The notes under the pieces: model-generated | What the model saw: only the letters and a program-made list of their open reading frames with translations | Told to the model about the DNA's origin: nothing | The model's database searches: none | Made by a program: the position numbers and the translations under genes | Shown: positions 11,552 through 14,538 of the stretch, piece after piece | Layout of the letters: every line of letters starts with the position of its first letter | Numbering within the stretch: position 1 is the first letter of the stretch | DNA from: Clostridia bacterium | GTDB taxonomy: Bacteria; Bacillota; Clostridia; Monoglobales; Monoglobaceae | Length of the DNA stretch: 64,000 bases | NCBI GenBank assembly: GCA_017546145.1 | Contig: JAFYXN010000009.1 | Location: 1-64,000 of the forward strand | Direction: 5' to 3'

Positions 11552-11580
11552 TTGACTGGTTTTGTGGTTTGTGATATAAT
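11552..11580 (+). promoter_or_regulatory. SigA promoter of the radical SAM/DUF4430 unit
   Basis: TTGACT (11552-11557), 17-bp spacer, TATAAT (11575-11580). The leader to ATG 11687 is about 100 nt and holds no recognisable riboswitch; a seven-codon reading frame starts at ATG 11593 but shows no ribosome site. Confidence 0.85.
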
Positions 11581-11686
11581 TTAATTTGCTGATGACACTT
11601 TATGCGCTGTGGTGAATTTAGAAATCTTTTGGTGGCAACTTGTCGCGCGAATGAATGACAGACTGCTAAAAAGAGGATGGTGTGCA

Positions 11687-12589
11687 ATGAAAATAAGCGA
11701 TTTTATATATTTCTCTAAATTTGGTTTAAAAACAGTCTTATTTAAAAAGAAAGACCCCATACTTGGAACGATTATTTTAACTGATAAATGCAATTTATCG
11801 TGTAAGCATTGCTCTGTTAACAATTTAACTGCTGTAATCTATCCTTATGCGCAGATTGTTGAAGAAATGAAGATATTATATGACATGGGTATTAGAATAC
11901 TGTTTTTTTGCGGCGGAGAAACATTTCTTTGGGCAGATAACGGCAAAACGCTGAGGGACTTAGTGATAGAAGCAAAAGAAATGGGTTTTCTGATAGTAAA
12001 TGTTGTTACTAATGGTACATATAAAATAGACTTGACCGAAGCGGATTTGATTCTTTTGAGCCTTGATGGTGACAGAGAACGGCACAATATTATTCGCGGA
12101 GATACCTTTGATAAAATTATGGAAAACATTAATAATGCAACTTCCGATAATATATGCTTTTATATGGCGGTAAACCAAATCAACAAAGATACTATTCCAT
12201 TTGTATGCAACCTTGCAAAGAAAACAAAAAATGTTCGTGCAGTATCCTTTAATTTTCATACTCCGTATCCCAATACAAAGGAATTGGAGCTGTCAAGGGA
12301 GGACAAGGTTAATTGTTGCAATATTATCAGGGATATGATTAAACAAAAAATGCCAGTTTTTAATTTAAAAAGCGCACTGCCGTATATAATTGATAACAGT
12401 TTTCCGACGCCTTGCTATCAATGTGTGGTGATGGAAAACGGTAAATTAAGTGTTTGCGGCAGATGCATTGATATTGATGGCCTTTGTGAAAGATGCGGAT
12501 ATTTCTTTGTTGCTGAATATACACTCTTGTTTAATGGAAATATAAAAATAATGATGGAAATGCTTGCTACGTATTTAAAATATGTATGA
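11687..12589 (+). CDS. Radical SAM protein with C-terminal triple CxxC cluster
   Basis: I start at ATG 11687 (GAGG 10 bp upstream); in-frame ATG 11651 and GTG 11609 lack ribosome sites. The 300-residue protein has the radical SAM cluster motif C35-x3-C39-x2-C42 (LTDKCNLSCKHCS), a FFCGGETFLW SAM-binding segment (variant of GGEP) and a TNGTY strand. Near the C-terminus, CX2C-X10-CX2C-X6-CX2C (CYQC, CGRC, CERC) could ligate an auxiliary Fe-S cluster or zinc, reminiscent of but not identical to SPASM/twitch domains. The reaction is unknown. It is followed 13 bp later by a second, different radical SAM gene. Base composition is visibly more AT-rich than its flanks. Confidence 0.82.
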   Translation: MKISDFIYFSKFGLKTVLFKKKDPILGTIILTDKCNLSCKHCSVNNLTAVIYPYAQIVEEMKILYDMGIRILFFCGGETFLWADNGKTLRDLVIEAKEMGFLIVNVVTNGTYKIDLTEADLILLSLDGDRERHNIIRGDTFDKIMENINNATSDNICFYMAVNQINKDTIPFVCNLAKKTKNVRAVSFNFHTPYPNTKELELSREDKVNCCNIIRDMIKQKMPVFNLKSALPYIIDNSFPTPCYQCVVMENGKLSVCGRCIDIDGLCERCGYFFVAEYTLLFNGNIKIMMEMLATYLKYV

Positions 12590-12602
12590 TATTGGTGAAG
12601 CT

Positions 12603-13856
12603 ATGAGTATAATTACATCTGCTACAAGAATGTGGCTTACAAAAAGCACAAAACCATTCAGGTTTGTAAATATATCTGATGAAAAGCTTGAATATGACAA
12701 CGAGCAAAATATGGGACTTTATGTGCACATTCCTTTTTGCCGACAGATATGTGATTTTTGTCCTTATTGTAAAGAAATATACGACCGGAAAAAATGCAAT
12801 AAATATATTGACAGCTTAATTCAGGAAATACATATCGTAGGCAAAATGCATAAAGGAAAAAAACAGGTAACAAGTCTGTATTTTGGCGGTGGTTCTCCGG
12901 CTTTGGCGGTTGAACGGATAGAAGAAATAATCAATACAATAAACATATATTTTTATATAACCGAAGGTATCGGAATAGAGCTTCACCCATCTGATTTGGA
13001 GGTTTCAAAGCTTACAAAACTTAAAAAGGCAGGAGTTACAAAAATATGTATTGGAATCCAGTCCTTTAACGAAAAGTTTCAAGCCTTGCTTGGACGGTGC
13101 AATGCAAATGCAAAGGTTATAAGTCAAGTGCTGAATGATGTGGAATTTGAAACTGTTTCAATGGACTTTATTTTTGCCTTGCCCAGTCAAACCTTTGAGG
13201 ATTTAAAAAGTGATATTGACACAGCATTTGAATGCGGTGCAAATCATATTGCTGTTTATCCTTTTATTGACTTCACATTTACAAAAAGCAAAATAAAAGG
13301 TATGAAAAGCAAGAAAAAAAGAGAACTGCTTGATCTGATAACAGAATATTGTTACTCGAAGGGCTACAGACGCGATTCAATATGGACATTTTCAAAAAAT
13401 CACACAGCAAAATACTCGTCCATGACAAGAGATAATTTTTTAGGGTTTGGGTGTTCTGCGACAACTCTTTTAAAAGACCGGTTCAAAATAAACACATTTT
13501 CGGTTGAAGAATATATAAAAAGAATAAATAAACATATATTGCCCACATCTCTTACTATAAAGTTTACTTTAAGACAGCGGATGATATATTATCTGTTTTG
13601 GTCTGCATACAGTACAAAGGTTGATTCGGCTGAGTTTGAAAAATTTTTTGGAATCCCTTTAAAAAGAATGTATGGATTGGAACTGTTTCTGGCAAAGCTT
13701 TTCGGCTTTGTTACCGAAAAGGACGGAGTATATTCAATGACATTAAAGGGGGCATTTTATTTTCATTACTATGAGAGCTTCTACACGCTTTCGTATATTG
13801 ATAAGATGTGGGGCATAATGAGGACTAATGCGTTTCCGGACGGTATTAGCCTTTAA
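12603..13856 (+). CDS. HemN/HemW-like radical SAM protein
   Basis: A 417-residue protein; I choose ATG 12603, which has GGTGAAG just upstream, over ATG 12582, which overlaps the previous gene without a ribosome site. GLYVHIPFCRQICDFCPYC gives C46-x3-C50-x2-C53 plus C56, the hallmark of the coproporphyrinogen III dehydrogenase-like family. LYFGGGSPALA and IGIQSFNEKFQALLGR are further HemN/HemW motifs, and GFGCSATT corresponds to the family GxGA motif. A winged-helix-like C-terminal part follows. Homologues include HemN, the heme chaperone HemW and heme-degrading ChuW-type enzymes, so porphyrin/heme chemistry is possible, but many members are unassigned. AT-rich like its partner. Confidence 0.82.
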   Translation: MSIITSATRMWLTKSTKPFRFVNISDEKLEYDNEQNMGLYVHIPFCRQICDFCPYCKEIYDRKKCNKYIDSLIQEIHIVGKMHKGKKQVTSLYFGGGSPALAVERIEEIINTINIYFYITEGIGIELHPSDLEVSKLTKLKKAGVTKICIGIQSFNEKFQALLGRCNANAKVISQVLNDVEFETVSMDFIFALPSQTFEDLKSDIDTAFECGANHIAVYPFIDFTFTKSKIKGMKSKKKRELLDLITEYCYSKGYRRDSIWTFSKNHTAKYSSMTRDNFLGFGCSATTLLKDRFKINTFSVEEYIKRINKHILPTSLTIKFTLRQRMIYYLFWSAYSTKVDSAEFEKFFGIPLKRMYGLELFLAKLFGFVTEKDGVYSMTLKGAFYFHYYESFYTLSYIDKMWGIMRTNAFPDGISL

Positions 13857-13892
13857 AATAGACACAAAAGGAAATTAATTGGAGGAAGATAA

Positions 13893-14369
13893 ATGAAAAC
13901 TTTAAATAACACTGATGATATGAAAAAATCCAGCATAGCACCTATGCTTCATGGCTTTATTATATATATAGTTTTGACGGCTGCTGTGTGTTTGGCTTTG
14001 TCTGCGTGCAGTAATTCGGGGCAGCAGAGTGATTTGTGGGAAAATGCAATTTATACACAGGATACAGAATTGGGAAGCGGAGCAAAAACAATAGCAGTTG
14101 AGGTCAAAGCAGAGGAAAAGGCAGTAACCTTTAAAATCAATACCGACAAGAAAACGGTTGGCGACGCACTTTCAGAACATAAGTTGATTTCTGGTGAAAA
14201 AAGTGCATACGGACTTTATGTAAAGTTTGTAAACGGAATTGAGGCGGATTATAACAAGACAAAAAGCTTTTGGGCATTTAGCAAAAACGGTGAGAGTATG
14301 ATGACCGGGGTAGACGGTGAAGAGATAACAGACGGCAGCCACTATGAGTTTGTTTATACAAAACAATAA
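13893..14369 (+). CDS. DUF4430 lipoprotein (transcobalamin-like C-terminal domain)
   Basis: A 158-residue exported protein after GGAGGAAG. A 20-residue charged N-terminus precedes a hydrophobic segment (FIIYIVLTAAVCLALSAC) ending in a lipobox-like LSAC, so it should be a lipoprotein anchored at Cys39. The mature domain (VTFKINTDKKTVGDALSEHKLISGE...GLYVKFVNGIEADYNK...SFWAFSKNGESMMTGVDGEEITDGSHYEFVYT) matches the DUF4430 pattern, related to the beta domain of cobalamin carriers and found in many Firmicute surface proteins. As the third gene of the radical SAM unit it may bind the substrate or product outside the membrane; that is inference. Confidence 0.78.
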   Translation: MKTLNNTDDMKKSSIAPMLHGFIIYIVLTAAVCLALSACSNSGQQSDLWENAIYTQDTELGSGAKTIAVEVKAEEKAVTFKINTDKKTVGDALSEHKLISGEKSAYGLYVKFVNGIEADYNKTKSFWAFSKNGESMMTGVDGEEITDGSHYEFVYTKQ

Positions 14370-14385
14370 TAAACGGACTGTAAAT

Positions 14386-14464
14386 GCAATCAGGCTTTCA
14401 GTGTCAGAAAGCCTGATTGCGTTATCTTATAGGAAATTACTACTTTTTTGTTGTAATTTCCTAT
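14386..14464 (+). terminator. Tandem hairpins after the DUF4430 gene
   Basis: Two inverted repeats: GCAATCAGGCTTTC (14386-14399) pairs perfectly with 14407-14420 (14 bp, loop AGTGTCA); ATAGGAAATTAC (14429-14440) pairs with 14453-14464 (12 bp, loop containing six T). A third weaker stem, AAGTG/CACTT at about 14516-14533 followed by TTTTATT, borders the rqcH stop. Together they fill most of 14370-14538 and should stop transcription from the radical SAM unit. Confidence 0.7.
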
Positions 14465-14538
14465 ATTACACAAAAGTGTACCTTAATCCCTTCAAGATTG
14501 AGGAGTAGGTGAGTTTAAGTGCTTAATCAAACACTTTT

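Follow-up and report, generated by a model that had tools for sequence, protein, structure and literature searches.

Two radical SAM genes, referred to here as r1 and r2, and a gene for a DUF4430 lipoprotein lie in tandem on one strand (Table 1), which raises the question of whether the three open reading frames form one system and on what molecule it would act. The window, that is, the whole stretch of 64,000 nucleotides that was analyzed, is contig 27 of a 1.66 Mb assembly that is 90% complete. A sequence-only reading of this DNA had proposed a laterally transferred three-gene unit, delimited by one promoter and a hairpin cluster and comprising two dissimilar radical SAM enzymes, the second of them HemN/HemW-like, and an exported lipoprotein, a combination for which it knew of no described system. 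The Pfam domains are Radical_SAM in r1 and in r2 and DUF4430 in the lipoprotein.

Table 1. Features of the r1–r2–lipoprotein region (window coordinates).
Feature	Position	Strand	Remarks
Promoter-like site TTGACT-17-TATAAT, TG before −10	11552–11580	+	11/12 consensus matches
r1, radical SAM protein, 300 aa	11687–12589	+	Relatives 72–78% identical, adjoining r2
r1 CX3CX2C cluster motif (C35, C39, C42)	11789–11812	+	Invariant, 94/94
r1 C-terminal six-cysteine array (C243, C246, C257, C260, C267, C270)	12413–12496	+	Invariant, 94/94
r2, HemN-like radical SAM protein, 417 aa	12603–13856	+	Alternative ATG 12582 gives 424 aa
r2 CX3CX2CX2C cluster motif	12738–12770	+	First three Cys 84/84, fourth 81/84
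DUF4430 lipoprotein, 158 aa, LSAC lipobox	13893–14369	+	Same-strand neighbour of r2
Two adjacent strong hairpins, gap between lipoprotein and convergent rqcH	14383–14465		z = −9.66

The proposed boundaries were upheld in part. The double hairpin is likely to mark the end of transcription, and the upstream site is a close match to the promoter consensus, although promoter-like sites in the region are no more numerous than in shuffled sequences. The start of r2 is probably the ATG at 12603, 13 nt past the r1 stop, because relatives begin there. The gap between r2 and the lipoprotein gene is 36 nt, and the lipoprotein is probably co-transcribed with r1–r2 in this genome. The leader upstream of r1 shows no structure above that of shuffles (z = +0.4) and no Rfam match, and neither a riboswitch nor, as had been noted before, a precursor peptide was found in it. 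The sole Rfam match in the window is a ribosomal protein L21 leader (RF00559, 35838–35912, + strand). The GC content of r1 and r2 is 34.0%, with a GC3 of about 32% (window median 39.9%, s.d. 4.1), whereas the lipoprotein gene has 39.2% GC and a GC3 of 38%, and the rest of the window has 41.1% GC. The atypical composition, previously ascribed to all three genes, is confined to r1 and r2; that of the lipoprotein gene is near normal.

Relatives of r1 were sought in one genome per species, giving 221 encoding stretches, of which the best 80 are 72–78% identical across all 300 residues. The two genes adjoin in about 80 loci, mostly in gut and rumen Clostridia and also in Erysipelotrichales and Treponema bins, which bears out the view of two dissimilar radical SAM enzymes as a unit. 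In every locus with sufficient contig, except L097, r2 directly adjoins r1, at a spacing of mostly −5 to +14 nt. The hosts of r1 belong to Lachnospiraceae, Oscillospiraceae, Erysipelotrichales and other Bacilli; three more are Spirochaetota bins, and as a downstream gene of their own is common to two of these, stray clostridial contigs are unlikely. An apparent Methanocorpusculum host (L081) was left out, as the neighbours look clostridial and the contig is probably mis-binned. No r1 ortholog was found among the 59 nearest other genomes, where the matches were weak radical SAM matches only, and insertion-site synteny in sister genomes gave no guidance, since most relatives have other genes next to rqcH. 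Distances between r1 proteins correlate with those between r2 proteins (r = 0.65). Families are mixed in the r1 tree, and the GC content of the cassette, from 33 to 62%, tracks that of its flanks (r = 0.86); both observations indicate that the pair has moved often, mostly long ago, and lateral transfer is likely, as had been suspected. Recent transfer everywhere is ruled out by the agreement with host GC. The window copy is atypical, being AT-rich for its genome, and its arrival there may be younger. A phage-borne cassette was rejected because r1 is absent from viral and phage collections; a plasmid collection gave two weak, partial matches to r1 only, and the annotated plasmid matches of r2 are hemN/hemW or `coproporphyrinogen-III oxidase family'. 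No description of the pair, and no system matching the combination, was found in the open-access literature. The r1–r2 pair is a genuine two-gene module that is apparently undescribed. It occurs in about 3–5% of the sampled genomes of the class and has been gained and lost repeatedly among bacteria of the gut and rumen, a spread that implies a metabolite or modification of importance in animal guts; it is easily missed, as no curated family fits and the genes would receive generic names.

The surroundings of the pair were characterized by clustering all open reading frames within 6 kb, tallying the Pfam domains of the adjoining genes on either side and comparing 600 nt flanks by tblastx. Within 6 kb, conservation is limited to the pair itself and includes neither a third gene nor a precursor, a leader or a transporter. 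The largest neighbour family reaches no more than three of about 65 loci, and families seen in several loci mostly reflect related genomes, the exceptions being generic HTH, GNAT and GGDEF proteins; a comparison by eye of the sequences upstream of the loci showed nothing obvious in common. Two individual loci stood out. In L137 (4308–8637), FeoA/FeoB-like genes immediately precede an XRE-type regulator, which is followed by r2–r1. In L139 (5025–11671), several radical SAM proteins are clustered with genes for ABC transporters; this may be a RiPP locus and is not related to r1.

The lipoprotein, proposed as the third member and as a possible binding protein for the product of the two enzymes, fared differently from the pair. 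Homologs with 51–59% identity are kept in five relatives of the same genus that lack r1–r2, with fumarase, an acyltransferase-like gene or other genes next to them, and about 90 further r1–r2 loci have no copy of the lipoprotein. Hosts of the pair show no enrichment of DUF4430, which occurs in 166 of 391 class genomes (42%) compared with 4/13 genomes with r1 and 6/20 with r2. The sequence-only reading had named a lack of co-occurrence in other genomes as grounds for rejecting its unit; r1 and r2 do co-occur elsewhere, but the lipoprotein does not accompany them. In favour of a three-gene unit are the short same-strand gap and the common end hairpin in the window, as well as the only other case of DUF4430 adjacency, in which a DUF4430/ECF S-component pair is convergent with r1–r2 in two sister genomes (L048, 8204–9104; L058, 4791–5646); a similar pair is present in L123, where r1–r2 is absent. 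Against these stand the retention of the gene in relatives without r1, its absence from the other pair loci, its different composition and the lack of enrichment, so that the unit is refuted as a conserved system and is very improbable; a regulatory link peculiar to this genome may still exist. Because relatives without r1 carry it, its GC content is near normal and DUF4430 is not enriched, the lipoprotein is best classed as a resident gene and a chance neighbour outside the conserved module. A small reserve is kept for a link of the lipoprotein to heme or cobalamin.

Within the module, the two genes are not equivalent in their distribution. Among the 391 class genomes, 13 have a genuine r1 and 20 have r2; a 14th r1 match (34% identical) belongs to another family and was left out. 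Eight of the 20 genomes with r2 lack r1, as inspection of their loci bore out, with G116 unsure since its locus is at a contig end, and as many hosts are metagenome-assembled genomes these absences can include binning gaps. The opposite case, r1 without r2, is clear once (L097). In one genus (g90), G129 has r2–r1–topB where G156 and G200 have r2–topB, and the alignment continues on both sides of a gap of ∼960 bp; L136 (2862–3821) compared with L178 and L179 shows that exactly r1 is present or absent between r2 and topB. The clean presence/absence site and the eight genomes make r2 as the core of the pair, with r1 as an accessory, the best reading of the distribution. In the g90 family r2 is divergent (33%), r1 is 53–58% identical and r2 precedes r1, and in two of three loci r2–r1 directly follows an XRE-type regulator. 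The topB gene (topoisomerase III) is found downstream of the pair in L135, L136 and L140, a position seen in the divergent clade as well as in the main one.

Both proteins belong to the radical SAM superfamily, scoring above the Pfam cut-off for Radical_SAM and having invariant CX3CX2C cysteines. The distinguishing feature of r1 is its tail, in which the spacing C243-x2-C246-x10-C257-x2-C260-x6-C267-x2-C270, already pointed out in the sequence-only reading, is exact in all 94 relatives; C157 is also invariant and C75 nearly so. No Pfam domain covers this array, and the top curated match of r1, PTO1314, reaches only 43 bits against a cut-off of 306. The predicted model has a pLDDT of 85, dropping to 64–78 in the C-terminal region; such a decrease would not be surprising if the region binds metal, which the model leaves out. 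Its best fold matches are SkfB and SuiB, and viperin folds are also matched. The resemblance to SkfB and SuiB, radical SAM enzymes with a SPASM/twitch region and likewise with extra C-terminal cysteines, suggests that the end of r1 may be a compact twitch-like domain, and the extra-cysteine region probably accommodates one or two auxiliary Fe–S clusters, or else one cluster together with zinc. However, r1 differs from these enzymes in being shorter and having neither a recognition domain nor a precursor; GKLSVC and six cysteines are present, but their spacing is unlike the CX9–15GX4C plus CX2CX5CX3C of SPASM/twitch proteins.

The earlier HemN/HemW-like label for r2 holds for the fold and not for the family. 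The AlphaFold2 model (pLDDT 89) resembles HemN (1olt) with a TM score of 0.71, and the CX3CX2CX2C motif is as previously described, with asparagine in place of the fourth cysteine in 3 of 84 relatives. The HemN motifs GPRYTSYPTA and RNFQGYTT and the HemW motif HNxxYW occur in 0/59 r2 members, and the HemW model gives 144 bits against an NCBIfam cut-off of 205.4; the genome's real HemW (C14) does have HNxxYW. The best model for the window r2 is NCBIfam PRK08629 (NF006385), at 195 bits over residues 5–395, ahead of the HemW, HutW, STM4012 and HemN models; every cut-off is missed, including that of 355 for PRK08629 itself, which is matched by all 59 members. This family is presumably Campylobacter jejuni CgdH2 (Cj0363c). 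CgdH2 binds heme and groups with the menaquinone methyltransferases, in a branch defined by six signature motifs (PMC10320005). The strict form of NxFxxxxY, which is also present in this genome's HemW paralogue, is found in 59/59 r2 members; the other five are strict in 0/59, three of them occurring in relaxed form (K for R, YPFI for QxTxYPLx, CxY for CxF) in 59/59 and two only in part. CgdH2 and MenK/MqnK share with r2 a nearly full-length likeness and the lack of the HemW HNxxYW and HemN motifs, whereas r2 stands apart in its sub-cut-off score, the relaxed form of its other motifs, the absence of UbiA from half of its hosts and its r1 partner. On sequence grounds, r2 is thus assigned to neither HemN nor HemW, and the CgdH2/menaquinone-methyltransferase branch is nearest. 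Two other relatives are more remote. The anaerobic heme-degrading methyltransferases HutW/ChuW have the HemN-like fold in common with r2 (138 bits over residues 25–386 of r2, cut-off 400), but no heme operon surrounds r1–r2. The partner of the HemN-like protein STM4012 (137 bits, cut-off 380) is STM4011, a small member of the radical SAM superfamily; however, STM4011 is not among the best r1 matches and the STM4011–STM4015 set does not surround the pair. Membrane-anchoring N-terminal helices were rejected, the amphipathic moment not exceeding that of shuffles.

HemN binds two SAM molecules without methylating, and a two-SAM pocket alone is therefore not proof of methylation. The two-SAM contacts of the class C methylase NocN have been described (PMC12871812). 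In a mapping read by hand from the HMM alignment, Tyr34, Tyr96 and Asp196 of NocN have invariant counterparts in r2, Arg153 is replaced by Lys or retained as Arg, and Ser225 is replaced by Ala in 58/59 members. As most of the contacts are kept, a two-SAM pocket in r2 is plausible, and r2 might be a methylase. NocN/NosN share the HemN-like architecture and most of these pocket residues; unlike them, r2 has Ala for Ser225 and no RiPP context, and their score to the r2 profile is ∼105 bits, covering the radical SAM domain only.

Endogenously made heme or menaquinone is an improbable substrate: ferrochelatase is found in 1/20 genomes with r2 and UbiA in 10/20, and neither was found in this assembly. 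Since the pair occurs in unrelated gut bacteria without dedicated genes, the substrate would be generally available, such as a common cell metabolite or cofactor or a gut-derived molecule; the candidates are a tetrapyrrole taken up from outside, a widespread cofactor, a site on a tRNA or protein, and an aromatic compound from the diet. The reading that we tentatively prefer, with a probability of about 40%, is a self-contained, horizontally spread two-enzyme module in which r2 would carry out a two-SAM carbon modification and r1 an optional second step. As the committed enzyme, r2 would use two SAM molecules in the manner of the class C methylases. With one SAM cleaved at its [4Fe–4S] cluster and a methyl(ene) group drawn from the second, it would act on an sp2 or aromatic carbon in a small molecule; r1 would perform a second radical step on the r2 product. 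This order, r2 and then r1, is taken only from their asymmetric distribution.

A bolder form of this reading, of somewhat lower probability, is an undescribed two-step radical pathway that makes or breaks a molecule outside the described systems, in which r2 would perform a two-SAM carbon transfer and r1 would contribute a new C-terminal multi-cluster domain. Several alternatives have to be weighed against the module. Salvage of imported heme or another tetrapyrrole, in which r2 would open or carry exogenous heme, r1 would process the product and DUF4430 might help in capture, is unlikely. It is consistent with the nearly full-length HutW match, the presumed identity of the top match as the heme-binding CgdH2 (PMC10320005), two histidines kept in r2, that of YxHxPFC and that of ELHP (the latter invariant and a putative counterpart of CgdH2 His133), FeoB next to the regulator–r2–r1 set in L137 and the DUF4430/S-component genes beside the pair in L048/L058. 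However, neither a heme importer nor a flavodoxin is a conserved partner, HutW scores no higher than HemW, and DUF4430 genes adjoin r1–r2 only in the window and in two sister genomes, with no enrichment in hosts (6/20 versus 42%). We give similarly little weight to maturation of a RiPP, with r1 and r2 acting on a ribosomal peptide from another locus or on some conserved protein of the cell. The r1 fold is closest to the RiPP maturases SkfB and SuiB, and RiPPs are substrates of HemN-like class C methylases, NocN among them (PMC12871812), but no SPASM or recognition domain was hit in r1, and no precursor gene or other conserved small ORF, leader, peptidase or exporter was found near about 70 loci. 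An anti-phage role for a viperin-like or other radical SAM pair would suit the patchy, mobile distribution and the matches of r1 to pVip profiles (about 1e-9) and viperin folds; it is very improbable, given that the viperin match covers the radical SAM core only (30.5 bits against the NCBIfam prokaryotic viperin cut-off of 180), that defence-island neighbours are lacking and that r1 is absent from phage and viral collections.

For the preferred two-enzyme module, the genus in which r1 is cleanly present or absent at a single site provides a natural contrast for metabolomic work. A decayed cassette in G320 (L138, 8318–9015), in which r2 is reduced to a C-terminal piece and r1 has an internal deletion, indicates that the pair is dispensable. 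A partial duplication occurs in G075 (L140/L029), where an intact r1 is preceded by a fragment of 109 N-terminal r1 residues that is 83% identical to the window r1.
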